Positions 24,056 to 34,174 of a stretch of 64,000 bases of DNA are shown in pieces. This DNA comes from Cryptosporangium arvum DSM 44712 (GTDB lineage Bacteria > Actinomycetota > Actinomycetes > Mycobacteriales > Cryptosporangiaceae). The stretch is from assembly GCF_000585375.1 (NCBI RefSeq), contig NZ_KK073874.1, positions 8,901,913 through 8,965,912 on the forward strand, given 5' to 3'. A program made the translations under genes and the position numbers. The notes under the pieces were generated by a model. The model was not told where the DNA came from and made no database searches. It saw only the letters and a list, made by a program, of their open reading frames with translations. Position 1 is the stretch's first letter; every line of letters starts with the position of its first letter.

Positions 24056-25037
24056 CCGCGAACGCCAGCCCCAGGATCCCGAGCGTGACGACGGTCAGCA
24101 GCGCGCTGACCGTCGACCGCTCCAACCAGAACGGAAGTTCCGTCGGCATCGACATCCAGTAGGACCGGGTCGCGAGGTGGATGAGCGGTTCGGCCGCGAG
24201 CAGCGCCACCGCGGGCAGCGTCACCACGCCGACCCACAGCCCGCGCCGATCCCGGCGGAGCAGCAGCCACCCGGCCACCGCGTTCGCGATGAACAGGAAC
24301 GACGGCGCCACCACCGCGAAGGCGGTCGGCGCCACCCAGTTGTACGACCAGTAGTGCGCGAGGTCGAGGCGCATCACCGGCACGATCGGCACGGCGGCGA
24401 CCAACACCGGCACCCATCGCGTCACCCGGCCCGGGCGGGACGGCAGCGCCAACGCGAGGACGCCGAGCGCCGCGTGCGGAAGGAGCGCCACGAACGACGG
24501 TGGCGATTGGCTGAACCAGCCACCGCCCGGCCCCACGACTGCCGTAGCCACCAGCCACACCGGTTTGGCCACGACCATCAGCACGAGCGACACCGCGATC
24601 AACCGCCGGCACCACCGGCCGGGGGCGACGGCGAACACGACCGCGGCAGCCAACCAGGCGATCCAGGCGAACGCCGCCACCGACTGGAACACACGGGACG
24701 GGCCGACCGGGGGGTAGTCGTCGAGCGTGGGCGTGAACTCGATCGCGAGCAGCCAGATCGTCGCCAGCATCGATCCGGTCGCCAGCGCCAGCACCGCGGC
24801 GACCGGCAGCGCACCGGTGAACCCGGACGCCTGGCGGACCCGTAAGTGCTGCCGCGCCCCGCCGACGAGCAGGTCAGCGGTGTCCCGGGGGCCGGGCCGG
24901 CTGCGGCCGGGCTCAACCGTGTCCAGGTAGGTGTCGACGAGTTCGTCGCCCCGTTCGGCGCGGTAGTCCGCCGGGTAGGCGAGCAGCAGCCGACGGTACC
25001 GCTGTTCCAGGCGGGTTCGCTGTTCCGGCTCGTTCAT
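23997..25037 (-). CDS. Polytopic membrane protein of a PadR module
   Basis: The 346-residue protein starts MNEPEQRTRLEQRYRRLLLA; the N-terminal helix pair (YPADYRAERGDELVDTYLDT) resembles HAAS-type domains found next to PadR genes. About eight transmembrane helices follow. Its ATG overlaps the stop of the PadR gene (ATGA), so the two are translationally coupled. The same gene pair type occurs at 41985-43153. Function is unknown. Confidence 0.82.
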   Translation of the reverse strand: MNEPEQRTRLEQRYRRLLLAYPADYRAERGDELVDTYLDTVEPGRSRPGPRDTADLLVGGARQHLRVRQASGFTGALPVAAVLALATGSMLATIWLLAIEFTPTLDDYPPVGPSRVFQSVAAFAWIAWLAAAVVFAVAPGRWCRRLIAVSLVLMVVAKPVWLVATAVVGPGGGWFSQSPPSFVALLPHAALGVLALALPSRPGRVTRWVPVLVAAVPIVPVMRLDLAHYWSYNWVAPTAFAVVAPSFLFIANAVAGWLLLRRDRRGLWVGVVTLPAVALLAAEPLIHLATRSYWMSMPTELPFWLERSTVSALLTVVTLGILGLAFAVSKPRRTGPAGSSRPAGER

Positions 25038-25378
25038 GCGAGGCCTCCCGCCGGAGCCCAACCCGACGCCTTCAGCCGGGACGTCGCGGCAGCCAGGTTG
25101 CGACGCATGCGCTCGGTCTCGGCGCCGAGCACGTTCAAGCCCTCGTCGGTGAGCCGGTAGTAGCGACGGAGGCGCCCGTCCACCACCTCTTCGTGGTCGG
25201 GCGCCACCAGCCCGTCGTCGGAGAGTCGGTCGAGCGCGCCGTAGAGGGTGCCCGGCCGCAAGGTGATCCGCCCTTCGGAGAGCTCGCTCACCTCGGTGAT
25301 CAGCCCGTATCCGTGCAACGGCTCTCTGGCTAGCGCGGTGAGGATCAGGAACGTCGGCTCCCGCAGCGGCGTCGTCAT
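25034..25378 (-). CDS. PadR family regulator
   Basis: From ATG 25378 (a TTG nine bases upstream is possible) the protein has 114 residues. The PadR winged helix reads EPTFLILTALAREPLHGYGL, ITLRPGTLYGALDRLSDDGL and RLRRYYRLTDEGLNVLGAET. It is followed by, and overlaps, the membrane protein gene. A TATATC-N9-GATATA repeat immediately upstream is the likely autoregulatory operator. Confidence 0.92.
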   Translation of the reverse strand: MTTPLREPTFLILTALAREPLHGYGLITEVSELSEGRITLRPGTLYGALDRLSDDGLVAPDHEEVVDGRLRRYYRLTDEGLNVLGAETERMRRNLAAATSRLKASGWAPAGGLA

Positions 25379-25387
25379 GGCCGCCAA

Positions 25388-25408
25388 TATATCGGCTGCG
25401 AAGATATA
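25388..25408. promoter_or_regulatory. PadR operator
   Basis: TATATC-N9-GATATA is a perfect 6-bp inverted repeat 10 bp upstream of the PadR ATG. Such AT-rich DNA stands out from the GC-rich surroundings and may include the -10 element. Confidence 0.6.
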
Positions 25409-25553
25409 CCGCTAGCGATGACACCGGGCGGACGGGGCGCTCCGCCGTTCGCCTGCCGGCCGGCCTTCAGGCGGGACGCTTGGGCAGCTCGAAGTGGCGC
25501 GGGCATCGAGCGGACCCGACCGCGGTGAGTGGAAATCGAATTCGTCGATCGTA

Positions 25554-25583
25554 TTGATTTCTTTCCGGGTCGGTGGCAATAAT
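25554..25583 (+). promoter_or_regulatory. Possible promoter for small gene
   Basis: TTGATT (25554-25559) and CAATAA (25577-25582) are 17 bp apart, in a locally AT-rich stretch. They would start transcription near 25590, ahead of the small gene and terminator. Confidence 0.4.
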
Positions 25584-25661
25584 CAGTTGGCGGTCGATCC
25601 GAAAGGCTCTATCGTCTTCATCGACACCGAGAACGACGAACACTTCAGGGAGCACACCATG

Positions 25662-25784
25662 TGGGGCGACGCCAACATCGCGCAGCAGCGAATTCCGCTG
25701 CTCGGCGAGGGTTGCCCGAGCATGGAGCGACCCTCCTACCGTCTGTACGTCGAACACCGGAAACGGTGGCGAAGCCAGCGCTGA
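25662..25784 (+). CDS. Possible small protein, 40 residues
   Basis: The ATG at 25662 follows CAGGGAG and opens a frame reading WGDANIAQQRIPLLGEGCPS and ending YRLYVEHRKRWRSQR. The frame is open back to 25494 and could start earlier, for example at TTG 25587 near the possible promoter, giving VDPKGSIVFIDTENDEHF first. A strong terminator follows 15 bp after the stop. No family is recognised. The opposite strand is also open here, so the call is tentative. Confidence 0.4.
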   Translation, partial: WGDANIAQQRIPLLGEGCPSMERPSYRLYVEHRKRWRSQR

Positions 25785-25799
25785 CGCGCTCCGCTCACG

Positions 25800-25834
25800 C
25801 CGCCCTTCCCGCCGGGAACGGGCGGTTTCTTTTT
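25800..25834 (+). terminator. Rho-independent terminator
   Basis: CCGCCC-TTCCC-gcc-GGGAA-c-GGGCGG forms an 11-bp stem with one bulge, followed by TTTCTTTTT. It closes the short + strand unit and separates it from the tRNA array. Confidence 0.85.
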
Positions 25835-25878
25835 GCCCGGCAATTGTTTCTCAGCGCTGCCCGAAATCATTTCTCGCT

Positions 25879-25952
25879 ATGGGTGTAGCTCAATTCGGTA
25901 GAGCGCCGGTCTCCAAAACCGGAGGTCGCGGGTTCGATTCCTGCCGCCCATG
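25879..25952 (+). tRNA. tRNA-Trp (CCA)
   Basis: The acceptor arms ATGGGTG/CGCCCAT pair over 7 bp with one wobble. The D arm is GCTC/GAGC, the anticodon stem CCGGT with loop CTCCAAA, and the T arm GCGGG-TTCGATT-CCTGC. The discriminator is G; CCA is not encoded. It is the first gene of the array. Confidence 0.9.
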
Positions 25953-26054
25953 CACCGACCCCGGCCAGCCGGCGGTCACGACGCTTGAAAACTGCACAGC
26001 GGATGGCACAGATTGACGCCGGGACCTCGTCGCGCACACCGCGGCGAGCCCGGC

Positions 26055-26129
26055 GGAGCTGGAGCGAGGGAGACGGCTAACCCGTCCGCCTTGGAAGCGG
26101 AAGACACCTGGTTCGACTCCAGGGCTCCA
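26055..26129 (+). tRNA. tRNA-Pro-like (UGG), atypical D arm
   Basis: The anticodon arm TCCGC-CTTGGAA-GCGGA gives UGG if the loop has seven bases. The T arm is CCTGG-TTCGACT-CCAGG and the acceptor GGAGCT/GGCTCC. The D region is odd: only AGC/GCT can pair, and six extra bases separate it from the anticodon stem. A37 replaces the usual G37 of proline tRNAs. Identity and function are uncertain. Confidence 0.6.
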
Positions 26130-26135
26130 GACTCG

Positions 26136-26209
26136 ATCCCCGTAGCTCAGCGGATCAGAGCACCAGACTACGAATCTGGGGGTCGGCGGTTCGAATCCGT
26201 CCGGGGATA
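26136..26209 (+). tRNA. tRNA-Arg (ACG)
   Basis: Acceptor ATCCCCG/CGGGGAT, D arm GCTC/GAGC, anticodon arm CCAGA-CTACGAA-TCTGG and T arm with TTCGAAT are all well formed. Discriminator A; no encoded CCA. Confidence 0.9.
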
Positions 26210-26226
26210 CGCCTCTCTAGCGGTAC

Positions 26227-26299
26227 GCCTCTCTAGCTCAGCGAGAAGAGCACGCGGTTGAAGCCCGCGGGGTCGCAGGTTCGAGTCCTGCGGGAGGCA
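26227..26299 (+). tRNA. tRNA-Phe (GAA)
   Basis: Acceptor GCCTCTC/GGGAGGC, D arm GCTC/GAGC, anticodon arm CGCGG-TTGAAGC-CCGCG, T arm GCAGG-TTCGAGT-CCTGC. Position 37 is G rather than the usual A. The 5' end is partly duplicated: TACGCCTCTCTAGC occurs at 26208-26221 and again at 26224-26237 (GTACGCCTCTCTAGC). Confidence 0.85.
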
Positions 26300-26310
26300 C
26301 GCGAACGAAC

Positions 26311-26383
26311 GCCCGTGAGGTTGCGGCAGGTCAGACCACTGGACTCTCACTCCAGAGGACCGGGTTCGACCCCCGGACGGGCG
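26311..26383 (+). tRNA. tRNA-Glu (CUC)
   Basis: Anticodon arm CTGGA-CTCTCAC-TCCAG has the same loop as ordinary actinobacterial tRNA-Glu(CUC). T arm CCGGG-TTCGACC-CCCGG. The acceptor GCCCGTG/GACGGGC has one mismatch at pair 7. The D arm is irregular. Confidence 0.8.
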
Positions 26384-26504
26384 ACGCAACCCGGCCTCGC
26401 ACCCCGAGGCCGCAGCCTGGGTCCACAGCCTGGGTCACAGCCCGAGGCCGCAGCCCGAGGCCATAGCCCGGACCCTAGTCCGGACGGACCCGATCAGTAG
26501 GGCG

Positions 26505-26720
26505 GGCCCGTTAGCCCGAACGGACCCAAGCAGCAGGGCCGGTCCGTTAGCCCGAACGGACCCAAGCAGCAGGGCCGGTCCATTGGCCCGAACGGACCCA
26601 AGCAGCAGGGCCGGTCCATTGGCCCGAACGGACCCAAGCAGCAGGGCCGGTCCGTTAGCCCGAACGGACCCGAGCAGCAGGGCCGGTCCATTGGCCAGAA
26701 CGGGCCCGAGCAGCAGGGCG
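26505..26720 (+). repeat. Six tandem 36-bp hairpin repeats
   Basis: Six units begin at 26505, 26541, 26577, 26613, 26649 and 26685. Each starts with GGTCCGTTAGCCCGAACGGA or a close variant and ends CAGCAGGGCC. Within each, GGTCCGTT pairs with AACGGACC (8 bp, 6-base loop); changes are often compensated, as in copies with GGTCCATTGG. TTAGCCCGAACGG resembles the D-arm of the Leu-like tRNA at 27061. Confidence 0.85.
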
Positions 26721-26878
26721 GGCCTTGATAGCCCGAGGCTGCGGCATGGGCCCCGTCAGCCGAGTCCCGCAGCGGGTCCGAGCGGCAGAACTGGGCCTCT
26801 CGGCCCTGGCCCCATCACGGACCTCTTGGTCCGAGGCGGCAGCGCAGGCCCTGGTAGCTCAAGGTCCGTAGCACGGGC

Positions 26879-26990
26879 CGGTCAGCCCAAGACCCCGTGC
26901 ACGGGTCGGTCAGCCCAAGACCCCGTGCACAGACCCGTCAGCCCAAGACCCCGTGCACAGACCCGTCAGCCCCAAGGCCCTTTGCGCGGA
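26879..26990 (+). repeat. Four tandem 28-bp repeats
   Basis: Units start at 26879, 26907, 26935 and 26963. The first three are nearly identical (core GTCAGCCCAAGACCCCGTGC); the fourth has diverged. They share the AGCCC-aag element with the tRNA D-arms of this array. Confidence 0.8.
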
Positions 26991-27060
26991 CCCGAGCAGC
27001 AGGGCGGGCTCTTTAGCCGAACGCCGCGGCACGAGCCCATCGGCCCGAGCGACGGAACCC

Positions 27061-27134
27061 GCCCCGGTAGCCCAAACGGCAGAGGCGGCCCGCTCAAACC
27101 GGGTCCAGTGTGGGTTCGAATCCCACCCGGGGCT
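27061..27134 (+). tRNA. tRNA with Leu anticodon (CAA), class I shape
   Basis: Acceptor GCCCCGG/CCGGGGC pairs perfectly; D arm TAGCCC...GGC; anticodon arm GCCCG-CTCAAAC-CGGGT; variable loop only CCAGT; T arm GTGGG-TTCGAAT-CCCAC. CCA is encoded at 27135-27137. Normal leucine tRNAs carry a long variable arm, which is absent here. Confidence 0.8.
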
Positions 27135-27141
27135 CCAACAC

Positions 27142-27196
27142 GCGGCGATAGCTCAGCACTTCAGAGCATCGCGTAGCCAAACACCGAGGGGCCGCA
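27142..27196 (+). pseudogene. tRNA remnant
   Basis: GCGGCGA, TA, then a perfect D arm GCTC...GAGC and an anticodon-like TCGCG-TAGCCAA segment are present. The anticodon stem does not pair, and the T arm is missing before GGCCGC, which could pair with the 5' end. It looks like a tRNA that has lost its 3' half. Confidence 0.55.
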
Positions 27197-27323
27197 CCGA
27201 AGTACATACGCGCTGAACTAGCGCCGGGGCGAACTTTGGAACCCCTCCGGCGCGCAGCCCAGCGCCTCTGTTCCGGGCGACGGTGAAGCCGGCCACCCCG
27301 GACAAGTCCCGGCGGTACGACGA

Positions 27324-27680
27324 TCACTCCTCGCTAGAGAAACGCTCCCAGGCCGACTGGCGAGCGATGCCGAGAGACTCGCCGATCCTGATCCAGGTGA
27401 CACCGCGACGGCGCAGTTCCTGGACCCAGGAGCGCAGCTCGGTCTCGGAACGATCGATGTGCGCGCTGACCCGAGGAATGTGGCTGAGCATCACGTCGTC
27501 AGTCAGCGACTCCCAGATCGGCACTCGCGGCACCGACGGCGTATCGGTGCTGCTCTCGATCACCATGGTGGCCAGCGCAACGCACTCGTTGCAGATGTAG
27601 ACGCCGGGGCCGGCGACGATCTTCTCGACGTCGGTGCTGGGCTTGCTGCAGAAAGAACACGCGAGTTCGAGCGTTGTCAT
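27324..27680 (-). CDS. ClpX-type C4 zinc finger protein with HTH
   Basis: The 118-residue protein starts [20 protein letters not shown] and continues [17 protein letters not shown]: four Cys (CxxC...CxxC) match the zinc-binding domain of ClpX without its ATPase. The C-terminus has a helix-turn-helix, [20 protein letters not shown]. ClpX zinc fingers bind protein partners, so this may be an adaptor-like DNA-binding regulator. Three GTCAGG-N5-CCTGAC sites upstream point to autoregulation. It sits on the minus strand inside the tRNA array. Confidence 0.85.
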
Positions 27681-27697
27681 CTGACTCCTCCTCGACT

Positions 27698-27769
27698 GTC
27701 AGGGCGACCCTGACGACGGTAGAGGTGTCAGGAAAAGCCTGACAACCATTTCGTCAGGATGATCCTGAC
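27698..27769. promoter_or_regulatory. Three GTCAGG-N5-CCTGAC operators
   Basis: Sites are 27698-27714 (GTCAGGGcgaCCCTGAC), 27727-27743 (GTCAGG-aaaag-CCTGAC) and 27753-27769 (GTCAGGAtgaTCCTGAC). All are perfect inverted repeats, spaced 29 and 26 bp centre to centre, beginning 18 bp upstream of the zinc-finger gene's ATG. Confidence 0.88.
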
Positions 27770-28018
27770 GAATCATGGTCCGACGCCTCCTCGCAACTCA
27801 AGGTGGCGTTCGAGCCGGAGGCGTGCACGACCGCATCGAAAAGCTCCACTCCCGAGCGGCTGGCCGAGCGCCGAGATCAGGACACGCGTCGGCTCGGACC
27901 GTGCTGTCAGCCCAGCACGCGCTCGAGCCAGAGCCAAGCCGGCCAACGTGTCGCCAGCGCTTCGACGTCCTCGGCAGCGGGCGGTTCACACCCCGTGATC
28001 CTCGAAGCATCCATCTTC

Positions 28019-28091
28019 GCCCTCGTAGCCCAACGGCAGAGGCACGACGTTGAGGACGTCGCCAGTGCGCGTTCGAATCGCGCCGAGGGCA
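28019..28091 (+). tRNA. tRNA with Leu anticodon (GAG), class I shape
   Basis: Acceptor GCCCTCG/CGAGGGC is perfect. D arm GCC/GGC, anticodon arm CGACG-TTGAGGA-CGTCG, variable loop CCAGT, T arm GCGCG-TTCGAAT-CGCGC, discriminator A. No long variable arm is present although the anticodon reads leucine. Confidence 0.8.
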
Positions 28092-28096
28092 CGCAA

Positions 28097-28169
28097 GCCC
28101 GGATAGCCCAACGGGAGAGGCACGCGGCTCAGACCCGCGCCAGTGCGCGTTCGAATCGCGCTCCGGGTA
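28097..28169 (+). tRNA. tRNA with Leu anticodon (CAG), class I shape
   Basis: Acceptor GCCCGGA/TCCGGGT, anticodon arm CGCGG-CTCAGAC-CCGCG, variable loop CCAGT and T arm GCGCG-TTCGAAT-CGCGC. It shares its D and T arms with the preceding gene, indicating recent duplication and anticodon change. Only five bases separate the two. Confidence 0.8.
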
Positions 28170-28185
28170 CCACGACCAGCCGCGG

Positions 28186-28210
28186 CGGCCACCCGGCTTG
28201 CGGGTGGCCG
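28186..28210. terminator. Bidirectional hairpin between tRNAs and the sodN operon
   Basis: CGGCCACCCG-gcttg-CGGGTGGCCG forms a perfect 10-bp stem between the convergent tRNA and radical SAM genes. There is no clear T-tract, so termination efficiency is uncertain. Confidence 0.6.
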
Positions 28211-28221
28211 CGCGGACCGAC

Positions 28222-29529
28222 TCAGTCCTGGGCCGGGAGGCTGTCCATGAACGAACTGACCGAGAACACGGCTCGGCCGGGCCCGGGAGGGCCGTATCCG
28301 GGCGGGCTGCTCAGGCCGTTGGCCTCCATGACCGCGCGGTAGGTCTGCAACAGGCGTACGTGGTACTCCAGCGGCGCACCCTGCGGATTGGTCTTACCGA
28401 GCGGGGTCGTCGGCTCGGGGCACCACGTGGTGAACCGCGGTGTGATGCCGCGGGACATGAAGTACTGCAGGCCCTCGGCCGTGGAATCGATCGCCTCGTC
28501 GACGCTCGTGAAGCCGTGCGGCGCCGCCATCTCCACACCGGCGACGAAGTTCGGGATCACGTTGCGCGGCCCGAACACGTCGGCCGAGTCGAGGATGCGG
28601 CGGTGCCACTCCTCGCGTCCGACGTAGCGCTCCTTGCCGGGGCAGTAGAGCTCGAAGAGCTTCTTGTCCCAGACCTCGTAGTTCGGGTGGTAGATCTGGA
28701 TGCCGTAGTCCTTGAAGCGCTGGACGTCGGCCTTGGGTAGCGCCTGCGCGACGACCTTGCCGATCCACCGCCCGGGGAACCGCTCCTCGATCGCCTGGGC
28801 GTAGCGCCCATAGAAGTCGGCTTCGGCCAGCCCGTCGACCTTCCGGGTGACGCTGCCGCCGGTCAGCGTGTAGGCCTTCGACGTGCGCGCGGTGTCGTAC
28901 TTGTCGATGATCGCGAGCGCTTCGAGGATCTCGTCGGTCGGCTTCACCGCCGTGTACGGGCGGCCCGCCGCCTTGTGCTGCCGGTAGTTGTGGTTGATGT
29001 CGCAGTACTGGCACTCCTCGGTGGCACCGAAGTACTGGCAGAGGCGATATGCGGTGAGATAGATCAGATAGCCCCACTGGATCGTGGGGGCGACCTCCAT
29101 CACCGACTTCCCGTTCGGAAGCGTGTGCCGGTAGTAGTCCGGCATCGGCGGCAGCCCCACGTCGGCGATCGGCCGGTCGTCCAGGTACAGGCGCATGCGC
29201 CCGTCGTCGTCGGTCTTGACGCGGTACGGCGAGGTGGGGTTGACCCGGACCGACACGACCGTGCGGCGCAGCTCGTACGGCCCGCCGGTGAGCACGATCT
29301 CCTCCGGCGGGCGACGGAGCGCGGCCGTGCCCAGCTCGGGCAGCGTGCGGTGGTCGAACGAGAAGATGAAGTACGACTTCGGCTTGACGTCGCCGTTCTC
29401 GTTGTCGGTCAGAGCGGAGTCGTCGAAGGACAACCCGCCCCGCAGCAGATCCTCCTTGATGACCGCTTCTTTCGGAACGGTTGAGAAGCGACCCATCAGG
29501 TCTTCGACGAGGTCAGTGCGGGTAGGCAT
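28222..29529 (-). CDS. Radical SAM protein with CX8CX2C cluster motif
   Basis: The 435-residue protein carries YRLCQYFGATEECQYCDINH: Cys spacing is CX8CX2C, not the canonical CX3CX2C, but the CxYC-type end and following YTLTGGSVTRKVDG (GGE-like) fit a radical SAM barrel. A 4Fe-4S cluster and S-adenosylmethionine would generate a radical; substrate unknown. The C-terminus is Pro/Gly-rich (SSPPGYGPPGPGRAVFSVSS). It is the last gene of the flavin reductase-sodN operon, 37 bp after sodN. Confidence 0.82.
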   Translation of the reverse strand: MPTRTDLVEDLMGRFSTVPKEAVIKEDLLRGGLSFDDSALTDNENGDVKPKSYFIFSFDHRTLPELGTAALRRPPEEIVLTGGPYELRRTVVSVRVNPTSPYRVKTDDDGRMRLYLDDRPIADVGLPPMPDYYRHTLPNGKSVMEVAPTIQWGYLIYLTAYRLCQYFGATEECQYCDINHNYRQHKAAGRPYTAVKPTDEILEALAIIDKYDTARTSKAYTLTGGSVTRKVDGLAEADFYGRYAQAIEERFPGRWIGKVVAQALPKADVQRFKDYGIQIYHPNYEVWDKKLFELYCPGKERYVGREEWHRRILDSADVFGPRNVIPNFVAGVEMAAPHGFTSVDEAIDSTAEGLQYFMSRGITPRFTTWCPEPTTPLGKTNPQGAPLEYHVRLLQTYRAVMEANGLSSPPGYGPPGPGRAVFSVSSFMDSLPAQD

Positions 29530-29566
29530 GCGCCCTCCGGGGCGGGTTGAACGAGAAACCTCCGGG

Positions 29567-29965
29567 TCAGGCCTGCTTGGTCTCCCAGAAGATCTTCGAG
29601 ATCTCTTCGATTTTAACGAGCAACTGCTCGGCTACGGCGGTATCCACAGCCCCCTTTGCGCCGCCGGCTCCGGCGAGCTTCGTGGCCTCGTTGAAGAGCC
29701 CGTGCAGGTGCGGGTACTTCTCGAAGTGTGGGGCCTTGAAGTAGTCGGTCCACAGCACCCAGAGATGGTGTTTTACCAGCTCAGCGCGCTGCTCCTTGAT
29801 GATGAGCGCGCGGGTGCGGAACGCCGGGTCGTCGCTGTCGTGGTACTTCTTGGCGATCGCCAGCACCGACTCGGCTTCAATGCGTGCCTGCGCGGGGTCG
29901 TAGACACCGCAAGGAAGATCACAGTGAGCGTTAGCGACAGCGCGGGGACGAAATAGACGAATCAT
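29567..29965 (-). CDS. sodN: Nickel superoxide dismutase
   Basis: The 132-residue precursor has a short leader (MIRLFRPRAVANA) followed by HCDLPCGVYDPAQARIEAES, the nickel hook. After cleavage His1, Cys2 and Cys6 bind nickel. The rest matches the four-helix bundle: TRALIIKEQRAELVKHHLWV, LWTDYFKAPHFEKYPHLHGL, ending IEEISKIFWETKQA. The enzyme converts superoxide to peroxide and oxygen. The usual SodX-like peptidase gene is not adjacent. The ATG overlaps the flavin reductase stop (ATGA). Confidence 0.96.
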   Translation of the reverse strand: MIRLFRPRAVANAHCDLPCGVYDPAQARIEAESVLAIAKKYHDSDDPAFRTRALIIKEQRAELVKHHLWVLWTDYFKAPHFEKYPHLHGLFNEATKLAGAGGAKGAVDTAVAEQLLVKIEEISKIFWETKQA

Positions 29966-30459
29966 AGGATTCCTTCCGTGACGAACTTCCTACGGTGATA
30001 GATCAGCGAGCCGTCGTCCGGGCCGTGGAACACCTCGAGCACCGACGCGACGACGACCGTCGAATCGCCGACCGGCAGGAGATGCAGCGGCGCGGCCCGG
30101 AGCGCGGCCGCGGCATCGGGGAGGACCGGCTCTCCGCTCGGGAGCGTCTCCCACCCCTGTTCCGGCGTGAAGCGGCTCCCCGCCGGGTGCGAGAACTCGT
30201 GCGCCAGCCCGACGTGCTTGGCGCCGAGCAGATGCACGACGACGCTCGACGCGGCGAGGATCGCGTTCGCCGTCGGCGTGCTCATCACCGAGAACGACAG
30301 CGCCGGCGGCGCCACCGACACCGAGGCGACGCTCGACGCGGTGAGCCCGACCGGCCCGTCCGGACCGGCCGCGCTGATGACCGCGACGCCGGTCGGATAC
30401 CGGCGGAAAGCCGACTTCATCTCGTCGGTGAGCAGTTCTTTCACTCCTGCGCGCTCCAC
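29962..30459 (-). CDS. Flavin reductase-like FMN-binding protein
   Basis: The protein has the flavin reductase core: MKSAFRRYPTGVAVISAAGP, VGLTASSVASVSVAPPALSF, NAILAASSVVVHLLGAKHVG, and RFTPEQGWETLPSGEPVLPD. It should reduce FMN with NAD(P)H. GTG 30459 is preferred because the predicted transcription start falls on it (leaderless); GTG 30468 and GTG 30444 are alternatives. It is the first gene of the sodN operon and lies under a SoxR-like promoter. Reduced flavin can itself generate superoxide, so pairing with sodN is sensible. Confidence 0.88.
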   Translation of the reverse strand: MERAGVKELLTDEMKSAFRRYPTGVAVISAAGPDGPVGLTASSVASVSVAPPALSFSVMSTPTANAILAASSVVVHLLGAKHVGLAHEFSHPAGSRFTPEQGWETLPSGEPVLPDAAAALRAAPLHLLPVGDSTVVVASVLEVFHGPDDGSLIYHRRKFVTEGIL

Positions 30460-30466
30460 GCGGAGC

Positions 30467-30497
30467 ACGCTAAAACCTGAAGTCGAGTTGAGGTCAA
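30467..30497 (-). promoter_or_regulatory. MerR-type promoter with SoxR-like box
   Basis: On the minus strand TTGACC (30497-30492) and TAGCGT (30472-30467) are exactly 19 bp apart, the overlong spacer that MerR-family activators correct. Inside lies CCTCAACTCGACTTCAGG (30493-30476), differing at four of 18 positions from the palindromic actinobacterial SoxR consensus CCTCAAGTTAACTTGAGG as I recall it. The predicted transcript starts at the GTG of the flavin reductase. Confidence 0.68.
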
Positions 30498-30530
30498 GCC
30501 AGGCCTTGGAAGGTGGCTCAGGCGCACTCG

Positions 30531-30603
30531 GGGCTCGTAGCTCACCCGGTAGAGCACCCTCCTTGCAAACGGGAGGTGGTCGGTTCGAGTCCGACCGGGT
30601 CCA
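30531..30603 (+). tRNA. tRNA-Ala(UGC)/Cys(GCA)-like, aberrant anticodon arm
   Basis: Acceptor GGGCTCG/CGGGTCC, D arm GCTC/GAGC and T arm GTCGG-TTCGAGT-CCGAC are good. The anticodon region CCCTCC-TTGCAAAC-GGGAGG pairs only as a 6-bp stem with an 8-base loop; a standard 5-bp stem with 7-base loop is mispaired. The anticodon could be UGC or GCA. It may be non-functional or a non-standard tRNA. Confidence 0.6.
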
Positions 30604-30616
30604 CAGCAGTACCGAT

Positions 30617-30690
30617 GCTCGGTTAGCTCAGCAGGTCAGAGCACCCGCCTGTCACGCGGGAGGTCGCCGGTTCGATCCCGGTACCGGGCG
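30617..30690 (+). tRNA. tRNA-Asp (GUC)
   Basis: Acceptor GCTCGGT/ACCGGGC, D arm GCTC/GAGC, anticodon arm CCCGC-CTGTCAC-GCGGG, T arm GCCGG-TTCGATC-CCGGT. Discriminator G; CCA is encoded at 30691-30693. Confidence 0.92.
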
Positions 30691-30694
30691 CCAG

Positions 30695-30768
30695 GTCGTC
30701 GTAGCTCACCCGGTGAGAGCGCCGCGCTGATACCGCGGAGGTAGGAGGTTCAAGTCCTCCCGACGACA
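30695..30768 (+). tRNA. tRNA-Ile (GAU)
   Basis: Acceptor GTCGTCG/CGACGAC is perfect; anticodon arm CCGCG-CTGATAC-CGCGG; T arm GGAGG-TTCAAGT-CCTCC. Discriminator A. It begins two bases after the encoded CCA of tRNA-Asp, so processing must be tight. Confidence 0.92.
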
Positions 30769-30789
30769 CGTACGACACCCACCACGCAC

Positions 30790-30861
30790 GGCGCGTTCGG
30801 CTACCGGTAGGCCACCGGACTTTCAATCCGGGAGGAACGGGTTCGAATCCCGTACGCGCTA
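30790..30861 (+). tRNA. tRNA-Glu (UUC)
   Basis: Acceptor GGCGCGT/ACGCGCT, D arm GGCT/GGCC, anticodon arm CCGGA-CTTTCAA-TCCGG, T arm ACGGG-TTCGAAT-CCCGT. Discriminator A. Confidence 0.88.
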
Positions 30862-30866
30862 CTCGA

Positions 30867-30939
30867 TCCCTCGTCGCCCAATTGGCAGGGCAGGCGGCTG
30901 TTAACCGCCACGGTGCAGGTTCGAGTCCTGCCGGGGGAG
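30867..30939 (+). tRNA. tRNA-Asn (GUU)
   Basis: Acceptor TCCCTCG/CGGGGGA, D arm GCCC/GGGC, anticodon arm GGCGG-CTGTTAA-CCGCC, T arm GCAGG-TTCGAGT-CCTGC. Discriminator G; CCA is encoded at 30940-30942. Confidence 0.92.
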
Positions 30940-30943
30940 CCAG

Positions 30944-31016
30944 GTCCGTGTAGCTCAATCGGGAGAGCGCCCCGTTCACACCGGGGAGGTCGGCGGTTCG
31001 AACCCGTCCATGGACA
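30944..31016 (+). tRNA. tRNA-Val (CAC)
   Basis: Acceptor GTCCGTG/CATGGAC, D arm GCTC/GAGC, anticodon arm CCCCG-TTCACAC-CGGGG, T arm GGCGG-TTCGAAC-CCGTC. Discriminator A. It begins one base after the CCA of tRNA-Asn. Confidence 0.9.
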
Positions 31017-31018
31017 CT

Positions 31019-31089
31019 GTGGCCGTAGCTCAATGGCAGAGCACCAGGTCGTGGCCCTGGAGGCGCCGGTTCGACTCCGGCCGGTCACC
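31019..31089 (+). tRNA. tRNA-His (GUG) with C33
   Basis: Acceptor GTGGCCG/CGGTCAC, D arm GCTC/GAGC, anticodon arm CCAGG-TCGTGGC-CCTGG, T arm GCCGG-TTCGACT-CCGGC, discriminator C as expected for histidine. Two oddities: position 33 is C instead of the nearly universal U, and the base before the acceptor is T, so the histidine-specific G-1 is not encoded. Confidence 0.8.
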
Positions 31090-31091
31090 CC

Positions 31092-31173
31092 GCGGGCGCG
31101 CCGACGATCGGAGAGTCGGGGCCGGCTGTAAACCGGTTGCATCGCTGAGAAGGTTCGAATCCTTTCGCCCGCA
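31092..31173 (+). tRNA. tRNA-Tyr (GUA), class II
   Basis: Acceptor GCGGGCG/CGCCCGC; anticodon arm GCCGG-CTGTAAA-CCGGT; a long variable arm between 43 and the T arm; T arm GAAGG-TTCGAAT-CCTTT. Discriminator A. This is the only class II tRNA of the array. Confidence 0.9.
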
Positions 31174-31174
31174 C

Positions 31175-31248
31175 GCCCCCGTAGCTCAGCGGACCAGAGC
31201 ACCAGGTTCCGAACCTGGGGGTCGGCGGTTCGATCCCGCCCGGGGGTA
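31175..31248 (+). tRNA. tRNA-Arg (CCG)
   Basis: Acceptor GCCCCCG/CGGGGGT, D arm GCTC/GAGC, anticodon arm CCAGG-TTCCGAA-CCTGG, T arm GGCGG-TTCGATC-CCGCC. Its D and T arms are nearly those of the Arg(ACG) gene at 26136, indicating duplication within the array. Confidence 0.9.
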
Positions 31249-31263
31249 CGCAGCACCACCCAC

Positions 31264-31337
31264 GCCGGAATGCCCGAGTGGCCCAAGGGCTCCGCCTGCA
31301 AAGCGGCTGTGCGCCGGTTCGAATCCGGCTTCCGGTT
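31264..31337 (+). tRNA. tRNA-Cys (GCA)
   Basis: Acceptor GCCGGAA/TTCCGGT, D arm CCC/GGG, anticodon arm with CCGC-CTGCAAA-GCGG (outer pair mismatched), T arm GCCGG-TTCGAAT-CCGGC, and U73, the cysteine identity base. Last gene of the array. Confidence 0.87.
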
Positions 31338-31361
31338 CCGGTGCCATCCGCTGTGCGGGAC

Positions 31362-33260
31362 TCAACCCGATCGATGGCGGCCACGCTCCGCGTCGGGGTC
31401 TTCGCCGGGGTAGGGCTCGCCGGGCGGTGGTGCGTACCCGCCGAAGTGGGGCGTGACCGCGTCCGGCGGAGGACCGTACTGACCCGGACGTTGCCCGCCC
31501 GGCCCGCGCCGCACTTCCGGCCCGGGGCCAGGGCCCGGCCCGCGCCCTGGGCCAGACCCAGGCCCCGGCCCCGGGCCGCGCTGCGCGCCTCTCGGCGCCC
31601 CTGACCCGTGACCGGCCGGCACCCGCGAAACCGGCGGGTACGGCCCACGTGGACCCCCGCCGCGAGGCCCGTCGCCACGCACGTTCCCACCCCACGGCCC
31701 CGCCCCCGGCGCAGGCCCCCCGTACGTCTCGGCCCCACGCGGCCCAGCACCAGGAAAACCAGCACCGGCATCCCGAGGACCCGCACCCGGAAATCCTTCA
31801 CCCCGGAAGCCGGCATCCGGATGACCCGGGCCCCGAGAGCCCGCGCCCTGGAGAGGCGGGGAAGCGCCATAGGGCGGCGGCGAAACGTACCGACTCGCTC
31901 CGGTGTCGTGCCCACCCGATCGCTGTGCCGCATACACCGGCGCGTACCGCGGATCCGGCCCAGCCGCCCCCGGCCCCGGCCCCGGTCCAGCCGCTCCCGG
32001 TCCAGCCGCTCCCGGGCCAGCCGCTCCCGGCGCCACCCCCGGCATCGGGTCGTTGAACGTCGGAACGTACGGCTCGGACCCGGCCGACGTCCCATCGCCC
32101 GGCGTGTCGGCCGCCGCCTCCCGGGCGAGGTCCTTCTCACGCACCTCCGACGCCGACGGCCCCACCGGCCACAGTCGCGGCTTGCGGCGAGCGGCCAGAT
32201 CCTCCGCCCACCCGAACAACATCACCGCGACGGCGATCAGCACCCATACCACCGCGTACGCGAAGACCGGGTTCGTCGACACCCCCGACTCCCAGAAACC
32301 CCCGACGCCCTCCAGCCGCTCGCCGCTGAAGAACGCCAGGTCGATCAGGATGTTGTGCCAGAGGTAGATCGTCACGGCCCGGTTGTTGACGAGCGCCACG
32401 AACCGTCCGAGCACCGGCGTCCGGCCGATCCAGGACGCGTCCGGCGCGAACCGCAGCAGCGGCAGGATCACCGCGATCGACCACAGCGACTGCGCGATCG
32501 GAATCCCGTTGAGGTCGTACGAATCAGACGGGTGCGTCAGTACCCAGCCGACGGCCCCACCCGCGGCCACCAGCACGAACGCCACGAGACCGAAGTTCGG
32601 CAGCCGCTTGAGCGCGCCCGTGCGGTGAGCGAAACCGAGCATCCAGCACGGAGCGAAGATCCCCAGGTCGGAGACCAGCGCCCAGATCGGCCCGTCGTCA
32701 CCGTTCGGGATGTACCCCCACGCCTGCGCCACGAGAAGACCCAGCGGCGCGATGATCGTCGGAATCGGCGCGCGGCGGAAGGCCGTGAGCAGCACCGGGC
32801 TGAGCAGTACCAGCCACAGGTACGTCCGCAGGTACCAGAGCACCACGGTGACGTTCTCGCCCCACTCGTTGCCGGGCGGGTCGAGGAGCGGCACGAACCA
32901 GAACACCAGGTGCCAGAGCGGGATCGGCTCGCCGGTGTCGACGTTCGTCCAGCTGCTCATCCGGCCGCCGGCCCACACCATCAGCGGCACCGTGATCGCG
33001 CCGAACAGCCACAGGGCCGGGAGCAGACGCCGGATCCGGTTGCGGATCACGGTGGTGGGGTCCTGCCGGTCCAGCGAGTTCACCATGAGCCCGCCGGCGA
33101 GCGCGAACATCACGCCCATCGCCGGGAAAGCCCAGCTCAGCCAGGCTCCGCCGAACGTGTGGTAGGTGACGACACGCACGATGGCGGCGGTCCGTAAAGC
33201 GTCCAAGTACAGTTCGCGTCGTCGCGCACCGGGCACAGTTGTTCCGACGGCAGGCGTCAT
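31362..33260 (-). CDS. Acyltransferase 3 family membrane protein with Pro/Gly-rich tail
   Basis: The 632-residue protein starts MTPAVGTTVPGARRRELYLD. Residues 15-380 are an acyltransferase-3 domain with about ten helices: ALRTAAIVRVVTYHTFGGAW carries the conserved His of the R/H catalytic region. Residues 400-632 are low-complexity Pro/Gly/Ala/Arg (GPGAAGPGAAGPGPGPGAAG and similar), probably disordered and cytoplasmic. It may O-acylate an exported polymer or lipid. It ends convergent with the tRNA array. Confidence 0.87.
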   Translation of the reverse strand: MTPAVGTTVPGARRRELYLDALRTAAIVRVVTYHTFGGAWLSWAFPAMGVMFALAGGLMVNSLDRQDPTTVIRNRIRRLLPALWLFGAITVPLMVWAGGRMSSWTNVDTGEPIPLWHLVFWFVPLLDPPGNEWGENVTVVLWYLRTYLWLVLLSPVLLTAFRRAPIPTIIAPLGLLVAQAWGYIPNGDDGPIWALVSDLGIFAPCWMLGFAHRTGALKRLPNFGLVAFVLVAAGGAVGWVLTHPSDSYDLNGIPIAQSLWSIAVILPLLRFAPDASWIGRTPVLGRFVALVNNRAVTIYLWHNILIDLAFFSGERLEGVGGFWESGVSTNPVFAYAVVWVLIAVAVMLFGWAEDLAARRKPRLWPVGPSASEVREKDLAREAAADTPGDGTSAGSEPYVPTFNDPMPGVAPGAAGPGAAGPGAAGPGPGPGAAGPDPRYAPVYAAQRSGGHDTGASRYVSPPPYGASPPLQGAGSRGPGHPDAGFRGEGFPGAGPRDAGAGFPGAGPRGAETYGGPAPGAGPWGGNVRGDGPRGGGPRGPYPPVSRVPAGHGSGAPRGAQRGPGPGPGSGPGRGPGPGPGPEVRRGPGGQRPGQYGPPPDAVTPHFGGYAPPPGEPYPGEDPDAERGRHRSG

Positions 33261-33352
33261 CGGAAGTCTCCAAGTGATCGGGGTGACGCCTGCTATCTGA
33301 GCAAACGCTGGGGATCCTGAGAAGACTCACAGGCTAACCCGTCCCACAAGTT

Positions 33353-33775
33353 TCAGCCGGGAAACGACTCCCGCACCGCGGCCGCGTCCGAATCGAGCAA
33401 GTCGCGGTCACGGACGCGCCAGTCCGCCGACAGCCGGAACGTGTCGCCGGTGAAGCGCGGCACCACGTGCAGGTGCACGTGGAAGACCTCCTGGAACGCC
33501 GCTTCGCCGTCGGCGAGGAACAGGTTGATCCCCTCACAGCGGAGGCCGGACCGGCGCACGGCCCCGGCCAGGCGATGTGCGGTACTCCACACCGCCGAGC
33601 CGAGGTCCTCGGGCAGATCAGCCAGCCCGACGACGTGGCGCCGAGGGATGACGAGCAGGTGGCCCGGGTTGACGGGCTGGATGTCCATGATCGCCAGCAC
33701 GTCCTCGTCGGCGTGCACGACGCTGGCCGGGCTCGTCCCGGCCACGATTTCGCAGAAGACGCAACTGTCGGCCAT
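33353..33775 (-). CDS. HIT family protein
   Basis: From ATG 33775 the protein has 140 residues: ADSCVFCEIVAGTSPASVVH, then IMDIQPVNPGHLLVIPRRHV and the histidine triad EVFHVHLHVVPRF (HVHLHVV). The N-terminal CxxC may bind zinc with a downstream His. HIT proteins hydrolyse nucleotide phosphoramidates or dinucleotides. It stands alone between the acyltransferase and an HxlR gene. Confidence 0.92.
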   Translation of the reverse strand: MADSCVFCEIVAGTSPASVVHADEDVLAIMDIQPVNPGHLLVIPRRHVVGLADLPEDLGSAVWSTAHRLAGAVRRSGLRCEGINLFLADGEAAFQEVFHVHLHVVPRFTGDTFRLSADWRVRDRDLLDSDAAAVRESFPG

Positions 33776-33799
33776 CACCCCGTACTACCAGTTGCTGAC

Positions 33800-34174
33800 T
33801 CACTCGCGGGCGCGGTAAGCGGCTCGGCTGGCTTCGATCTGCGGCACGTGCTCGATGGCCCAGCCGGCCAGCGCGAGGGCGGGCGCGATCAGGCTCTTGC
33901 CCACCGCGGTCAGCGCGTACTCGACCCGCGGCGGCACCTCGGCGTAGACGGTGCGCGCCACCAGCCCGTCGCGCTCGAGGTTGCGCAAGGTCAGCGTCAG
34001 CATGCGCTGGGAGATGCCCGGTATCTGCTGGTGCAGGTCGGTGAAGCGCACGGTGCCCTGATCGAGGGTCGCGACGACCAGCAGCGTCCATTTGTTGCAG
34101 ATCTGGTCGAGGATCGCACGGAGGGTCTTGCCGCCGTCGCCGCGGATCATGCACGTGTGTTCGTACTCGGACAC
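33800..34174 (-). CDS. HxlR family regulator
   Basis: GTG 34174 follows AAGGAGG and gives 124 residues: VSEYEHTCMIRGDGGKTLRA, then ICNKWTLLVVATLDQGTVRF and GISQRMLTLTLRNLERDGLV. The N-terminal Cys is typical of redox- or aldehyde-responsive HxlR proteins. It faces a DoxX gene and likely represses it. An ATAGTGAC...GTCACTAT inverted repeat (34218-34225 and 34263-34270) lies between them. Confidence 0.92.
   Translation of the reverse strand: MSEYEHTCMIRGDGGKTLRAILDQICNKWTLLVVATLDQGTVRFTDLHQQIPGISQRMLTLTLRNLERDGLVARTVYAEVPPRVEYALTAVGKSLIAPALALAGWAIEHVPQIEASRAAYRARE

Follow-up and report, generated by a model that had tools for sequence, protein, structure and literature searches.

How can a tRNA with a leucine anticodon work without the long variable arm, and why would a genome carry several such tRNAs in one cluster? 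These questions are raised by a 64,000-nucleotide stretch of DNA from Cryptosporangium arvum DSM 44712 (G000:C1:8901913-8965912, from a complete 9.2-Mb single-contig genome), which we call the window. An earlier note, made from the sequence alone, had singled out three tRNA genes with the Leu anticodons CAA, GAG, and CAG that have no class II variable arm. It left two options, charging by a non-leucyl synthetase with recoding of Leu codons, or charging by LeuRS through other determinants. The locus as a whole is probably best explained as follows: the genes belong to the short-arm (class I) Leu tRNAs of actinomycetes, they are spares, and the array that holds them is headed by an attenuator.

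Results

An interrupted tRNA array with three short-arm Leu genes

ARAGORN places 18 tRNA genes, all on the forward strand, between positions 25879 and 31339 of the window. At 18 tRNAs in 5.46 kb, or 3.3 per kb, the array is denser than the criterion of at least 2 per kb, and its tRNA count lies below the 20 needed for a tRNA array unit as defined in PMC5966550. tRNA-Trp(CCA) comes first (25879-25953; 69 bits with Rfam model RF00005) and is followed by Pro(TGG), Arg(ACG), Phe(GAA), and Glu(CTC) at 26059-26385. Then come the three Leu genes: Leu(CAA) at 27061-27137, with an encoded CCA and the discriminator U73; Leu(GAG) at 28019-28092, with A73 and no encoded CCA; and Leu(CAG) at 28097-28172, with A73, an encoded CCA, and a G1:U72 closing pair. 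The 3' part of the array, at 30531-31339, holds tRNA-Ala, Asp, Ile, Glu(TTC), Asn, Val, His, Tyr, Arg(CCG), and Cys.

Unlike the compact arrays of relatives, the window array is interrupted. Its GAG and CAG genes are separated from the terminator described below by 2.2 kb, which includes a tandem-repeat gap of 675 bases and, between Leu(CAA) and Leu(GAG), an antisense ORF (27324-27680) that encodes a ClpX-type zinc finger. Downstream of Leu(GAG) and Leu(CAG), another 2.3 kb holding three antisense genes precedes tRNA-Ala. This distance and these interruptions make read-through of the whole array less certain than it is for relatives with compact arrays. The three antisense genes (28222-30468, reverse strand) encode a radical-SAM protein, a Ni-superoxide dismutase, and a flavin reductase, and two Streptomyces plasmids carry DNA matches of 79-82% to the radical-SAM gene. 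A 36-base tandem repeat of 6.8 copies occupies 26476-26719, and its unit starts with TAGCCCGAACGG, a sequence similar to the D-arm of the short-arm Leu genes. By eye, tRNA-like debris (TAGCTCAG..AGAGCATCGCG) can be seen at 27143-27200, directly 3' of Leu(CAA).

That the three Leu genes have no class II variable arm was confirmed by ARAGORN and by RF00005, which scores CAA, GAG, and CAG at 52.1, 52.7, and 50.1 bits (gathering score 29); the variable loop is 5 bases long, CCAGT, in all three. The earlier note was also correct in ascribing a TAGCCC D-arm to all of them. The T-arms, described there as near-identical, are so for GAG and CAG (GCGCG/CGCGC), and CAA differs (GTGGG/CCCAC). The three genes do form one family, yet this family is order- and class-wide rather than specific to the locus.

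The short-arm family in relatives

A blast search with the GAG gene matched 26 of 41 genomes. Array copies of Leu(GAG) were 97% identical in G030 and in G002, 95% in G003, and 84% in G004; the other loci typed with ARAGORN are solitary chromosomal Leu genes with CAA, TAA, or TAG anticodons, all of them short-armed. The three window genes and 29 relatives make up alignment A1 (32 sequences), from which model R1 was built with a specified cloverleaf. This cloverleaf is paired in 99.4% of 620 cells, with both-side changes in 16 of 20 pairs; none of 500 shuffles was as good, and slid controls were 34-50% paired. A cloverleaf with compensatory changes across relatives indicates that the short-arm structure is not a product of chance.

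R1 scores its window members at 87-94 bits (88.2 for CAA, 93.5 for GAG, and 86.9 for CAG), and the next tRNA, the array's Asn, at 64.6 bits. All 150 genomes of the order match R1 at E <= 1e-9, but this threshold also admits other tRNAs: order genomes without a short-arm Leu (e.g., G001 and G018) have a best R1 match with E near 1e-12. At E <= 1e-15, 172 of 197 genomes of the class match, a count for which anticodons were not individually checked. The G1:U72 closing pair of the window CAG gene (28097-28169) is found in all five array copies of tRNA-Leu(CAG) in A1, the other four being L040, L041, L042, and L043.

The discriminator is A73 in 31 of the 32 aligned sequences and U73 in the window CAA gene. 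Two congeners, G002 and G003, have second arrays in which the homologue of the CAA gene carries A73, so the U73 of the window gene looks derived. On this comparison, the window CAA gene is probably a copy weakened by U73.

Sole decoders in seven families

RF00005 gives 67 tRNA matches in the C. arvum genome. Each of the anticodons CAA, TAG, TAA, CAG, and GAG has one class II tRNA-Leu outside the array, and a single gene scores over the cut-off of the LeuRS model (TIGR00396). Since the long-arm Leu set is complete, the array Leu tRNAs are extra copies, that is, spares. The genome also encodes, besides a normal ValRS, a second ValRS of the alt_ValS kind (L003; G000:C1:3244980-3246758), 5.7 Mb away from the array.

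What happens where a short-arm tRNA has no long-arm counterpart? Seven single-contig genomes from seven different families were chosen from the 150 and searched with two models, R1 (class I, E <= 1e-14) and R2 (class II Leu, E <= 1e-10), the latter built from the five C. arvum housekeeping Leu tRNAs only; anticodons were assigned with ARAGORN. Housekeeping tRNAs with the anticodons CAG and GAG are class II in all seven genomes. The CAA tRNA, which decodes UUG, is class I in all seven. The TAA tRNA, which decodes UUA, is class I in six (the exception, G047, has class II), and the TAG tRNA, which decodes CUA, is class I in five (G052 and G077 have class II). For the class I anticodons, R2 at its threshold showed no class II copy in any of the seven genomes. 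The five Leu anticodons are split between class I and class II forms in each genome. G075 has an additional short-arm CAG, and G047 has array GAG and CAG genes.

A sole UUG or UUA tRNA that was not leucylated would misread the whole proteome. Judged from the genomes, the short-arm family must therefore consist of leucine tRNAs. The premise that bacterial tRNA-Leu has a long arm, from which the earlier note started, fails in this actinomycete class on both the sole-decoder result and the 172 of 197 matching genomes; here, a short arm is ordinary. The naming of tRNA-Leu-2, 3, and 5 of Mycobacterium tuberculosis as long-looped (PMC11541572) fits a split into three long and two short forms. In the open-access literature, we found no paper describing the class-wide split.

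LeuRS identity elements

In E. coli, the elements essential to LeuRS are A73, A15-U48, G18G19, and A20a; the long arm is uncorrelated with leucylation, and minimal tRNAs lacking it are still active, while a change of A73 to C73 abolished leucylation of a minimal tRNA-Leu (PMC9976931). A14, A15, U48, and G18 are present in all 32 family sequences; the G19 and A20a columns are kept in 29, and the other three are shifted by an extra D-loop base. All three window Leu genes combine an intact cloverleaf and a Leu anticodon with the core U8-A14, A15-U48, G18G19, and A20a, and A73 is present in GAG and CAG and absent from CAA. The absence of a class II variable arm bars the name "class II tRNA", not "tRNA-Leu". 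When R2 was run on all window tRNAs, the three Leu genes ranked top (53.3, 53.0, and 50.4 bits), followed by Pro at 38.5 and Tyr at 36.4 bits. A15-U48 alone was rejected as a mark of Leu, as several other C. arvum tRNAs combine A15 with U48. A wider D-arm motif is found in 8 of 8 Leu tRNAs but also in 3 of 59 others.

The sole-decoder homologues, the retained A14, A15-U48, G18G19, A20a, and A73, and the R2 ranking support charging by LeuRS through determinants other than the arm. Very likely, LeuRS charges the GAG and CAG tRNAs, and CUC/CUU and CUG would be read as leucine. For the window CAA tRNA, we see even chances that it would still be charged with leucine.

A candidate attenuator ahead of the array

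A promoter-like site, TTGATT-N18-AATAAT (25554-25583, forward strand), is the sole sigma-70-like match in 25400-31500, for which shuffles predict 0.4 matches. It is followed on the same strand by a leader ORF of 41 codons (MWGDANIAQQRIPLLGEGCPSMERPSYRLYVEHRKRWRSQR; 25659-25784), which has an AGGGAG ribosome-binding site ahead of it and the same position and layout in relatives. An intrinsic terminator hairpin with a T-run (25799-25834, forward strand) lies between the leader ORF and the first tRNA. The tail of the ORF mimics the 3' arm of this terminator (CCGGAAACGGTGGCG versus CCGGGAACGGGCGG in the window), a resemblance that would let it act as an antiterminator by pairing with the 5' arm. 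The putative antiterminator strand is GGUGGCG at 25765-25771 (forward strand), in the W-R codons of the ORF tail, and is complementary to 25798-25804. No Rfam family for an attenuator was found in 25000-34000 of the window or in 8 loci.

We compared 14 arrays that include a short-arm Leu(GAG); they come from G000, G002-G004, G030, G047, and eight records (Actinoplanes and relatives, Micromonospora, and Pseudosporangium). A script detected the leader ORF and terminator in 12 of these, with 43-53 nt from the stop codon to the T-run. In G333 and G337, inspection by eye and the model described below reveal the ORF tail and hairpin with a broken T-run (47.3 and 56.5 bits). The control region is present in 14 of the 14 arrays examined, two of them with a poor T-run. 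Across the 12 sequences, the antiterminator is paired in 94.7% of 94 cells (slid controls, 40-68%) and the terminator in 99.0% of 104 cells (slid controls, 34-55%); G004 has one antiterminator mismatch. Neither pairing shows covariation over the 12 sequences because both are nearly invariant. Folds of individual sequences mostly contain the antiterminator pairing but rarely outdo shuffled tails, which form it too, in fractions of 0.05-0.68 of trials.

The leader peptide shows no clear purifying selection by codon substitutions in four close pairs, where 6 of 10, 9 of 11, 10 of 13, and 13 of 19 codon changes are non-synonymous versus about 75% expected, and these counts leave conservation of the leader as a protein unsupported. 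The leaders contain no run of one regulatory codon; each has 13-19 different residues. Summed over 13 leaders (that of G333, represented by its tail only, was left out), residue diversity is 214 versus 202.4 expected (P 0.016), a weak signal from leaders that are not independent. The leader peptide of G335, the only one used as a query, was unmatched in plasmid and phage records at E up to 5.

Model R3, composed of the ORF tail and terminator, was built from the attenuator sequence itself and scores the window site at 69.8 bits. It found 22 sites in 15 of the 150 order genomes, all within families f1 and f15, and six of these sites are members of the model. All 22 are followed closely by tRNA genes (21) and/or rtcB (8). 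Eight of the 16 new sites precede rtcB with zero to four tRNAs between, seven head arrays, and one, close to the end of a contig, stands before a lone Ala tRNA. RtcB was confirmed with Pfam at all eight rtcB sites (E of 1.7e-96 or better); g16 of f15 is the one genus where the attenuator heads rtcB. At each of the 16 new sites, the tail of the ORF can form 6 or 7 of 7 pairs with the terminator arm, a result that is partly circular since R3 selects that sequence. In G003 and G002, a second array with a short-arm Leu(CAA) stands behind a second copy of the attenuator (L217 and L218).

C. arvum has its own rtcB elsewhere (L224; G000:C1:7867618-7868718, reverse strand), and upstream of it are a short leader-like ORF, a hairpin, and a T-run of different sequence. 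R3 does not match there, and this leader and hairpin may possibly be an independent attenuator.

Repertoire and anticodon loops of the arrays

The 14 arrays hold 167 typed tRNAs. Leu(GAG) led to 12 of the arrays and R1 to one (G047), and the remaining one is that of the window; the presence of Leu(GAG) in 14 of 14 is thus largely selection. Leu(CAG) was not a selection criterion, so its presence in 13 of 14 arrays is meaningful; Trp and Tyr are each present in nine. Arrays of four or five tRNAs (G004, G333, and G337) retain Trp, Leu(GAG), Leu(CAG), and Tyr. One further array, L212 in G125, has a long-arm class II Leu(CAG) beside a short-arm Leu(GAG).

Housekeeping Leu(CAG) and Leu(GAG) have the anticodon loops TTCAGGT and TTGAGGT (14 sequences from seven genomes). 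The array GAG loop is TTGAGGA in 13 of 14 arrays, and the array CAG loop is varied. The window CAG gene has A37. Among tRNAs with G36, 17 of 54 array copies have A37, versus 1 of 13 C. arvum housekeepers. G36G37 is kept by Leu(GAG) in 13 of 14 arrays and by Leu(CAG) in 9 of 13.

The array Leu pair had only partial matches in phages and plasmids, in three phage records (two phages) and one plasmid. The phages Myrna and Phabba have a similar tRNA-Leu (86% over 59 bases). A stretch of an IMG/VR phage contig (L194) has 18 tRNA genes, among them short-arm genes for Leu(TAA) and Leu(AAG).

Discussion

How might the control region work? If the leader ORF is translated to its stop, the ribosome would cover the ORF tail, the terminator would form, and the array would stay off. 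If leader translation fails, the ORF tail would pair with the 5' arm of the terminator and the array would be transcribed. The spare tRNAs, and elsewhere also the RtcB ligase, would in this way be switched on upon translation failure. The same attenuator stands ahead of rtcB in eight relatives, which makes tRNA damage or loss the most likely trigger. We rate slightly above even the chance that the signal is translation failure caused by tRNA damage or loss and that the response consists of replacement tRNAs and tRNA repair. Three results weaken the attenuator reading: the four close pairs show no protein-level constraint on the leader, the excess of residue diversity is weak, and the window array is interrupted. 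The comparisons show the genes, their relatives, the sole-decoder status in relatives, the conserved complementary segments, and the link to rtcB; charging, switching, the signal, and the benefit are inferred. More tentatively, and with the balance tilting somewhat the other way, we propose an actinomycete tRNA-damage response under a general translation sensor: a short leader would sample most amino acids, and loss of almost any tRNA would halt its translation, free the antiterminator, and turn on the spares, with the short-arm Leu(GAG) and Leu(CAG) at the array core and, in some genomes, the tRNA-repairing RtcB.

Other readings of the locus have to be weighed against this one. A synthetase other than LeuRS might charge the short-arm tRNAs and place another amino acid at Leu codons; the missing long arm, U73 in the CAA gene, and the second, alt_ValS-kind ValRS of C. 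arvum would be in keeping with this. Against it, for three Leu anticodons the searches in relatives found no Leu tRNAs but homologues of these, LeuRS determinants are retained, there is no G3:U70 pair, and none of the six Pfam-hit proteins beside or inside the array is a synthetase. The sole-decoder test and the identity elements led us to reject recoding by another synthetase for GAG and CAG, and only the U73-bearing CAA might be charged in this way; overall, we consider recoding highly improbable. It is also unlikely that the array is a functionless, decaying cluster of phage or plasmid origin with the Leu genes as its remnants. The tandem-repeat gap, the tRNA-like debris, U73 of CAA, the genes inserted in the array, and the similar phage tRNA-Leu would all suit such decay, but the cloverleafs are intact with compensatory changes across families, Leu(CAG) persists even in the arrays of four or five tRNAs, and the attenuator is conserved.

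Could the array simply supply codons? CUG and CUC codons are frequent in high-GC genomes, and extra tRNAs could boost the capacity for common codons, in which case the leader and terminator would be a mere upstream gene and its terminator. We doubt this strongly: the array repertoire duplicates housekeeping isoacceptors, the distance from leader stop to T-run stays within its narrow range in 12 arrays, and every R3 site stands ahead of tRNA genes or rtcB. Alternatively, the array tRNAs might be nuclease-proof replacements, their short arm and changed anticodon loops making them resistant to VapC-like tRNases that cut Leu-CAG and Leu-GAG. VapC-mt11 cuts Leu-CAG and Gln-CUG after G36G37 (PMC6459853), and the A37 of the window CAG gene and the A37 excess among array tRNAs are suggestive of escape from such GG-specific enzymes. 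The picture is mixed, as GAG largely keeps its GG and Leu(CAG) does so in most arrays, and no tRNase of this host is known. As the whole story, nuclease-proof loops were not upheld; the idea is compatible with attenuator-controlled spares, and we hold it to be possible, with the weight of the evidence leaning against it.

What do these tRNAs mean beyond this locus? Short-arm sole decoders across many actinomycete families indicate that in nature tRNA-Leu can do without its class II arm, and they are natural test cases for studies of tRNA identity. If the attenuator works as we read it, it would explain how redundant tRNA arrays, whose role is debated, are kept silent and switched on. It would also connect the arrays to RNA repair and make the idea of a response to tRNA loss testable.

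The trp and his ribosome-mediated attenuators combine a leader ORF with an alternative antiterminator and terminator. The region described here resembles them in its leader ORF, putative antiterminator, and terminator, and differs in having no regulatory-codon run and in using the ORF's own last codons as the antiterminator strand.

The regulatory logic has precedents in Anabaena and Salmonella. In Anabaena, TrcR jointly represses a spare trn operon and rtcB, and inhibitors of translation induce them (PMC10272220), so that silent spare tRNAs and rtcB are induced together by translation stress, much as we propose here. That system places an RHH repressor at the promoter, whereas here there is a leader ORF with a terminator, and rtcB lies directly behind the attenuator in eight relatives. 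In Salmonella, rtcBA is induced by tRNA fragments that RtcR senses (PMC7790460), and tRNA damage likewise signals RtcB expression. The sensor there is a protein that recognizes RNA ends, and tRNA genes do not feature in the accessible part of that report; here, failed translation would be what is sensed.

Phage tRNAs that evade anticodon nucleases (PMC10264068) resemble the array tRNAs as replacements with altered anticodon loops in actinobacterial systems. They belong to phage genomes and, in the accessible part of that account, have no attenuator, and the loop changes in our arrays are only partly of that kind. The tRNA array units of mycobacteria are likewise dense, redundant tRNA clusters of actinomycetes, their phages, and plasmids (PMC5966550, PMC12803027). 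They have at least 20 tRNAs versus 18 here and, as far as the accessible parts of these sources go, come without a leader attenuator or a link to rtcB. Short-arm tRNA-Leu is already in print for a mycobacterial cluster: in the Mycobacterium mucogenicum clade, a cluster encodes a short-variable-loop tRNA-Leu(TAG) beside a long-arm housekeeping isoacceptor (PMC6582537). That report, in its accessible part, treats the one anticodon in passing, without a class-wide family, a sole-decoder test, or a control region. In the open-access literature, we found neither the array control region nor its leader-based attenuator form. Set against these known systems, what is new is the attenuator ahead of these arrays and, in g16 of f15, ahead of rtcB.
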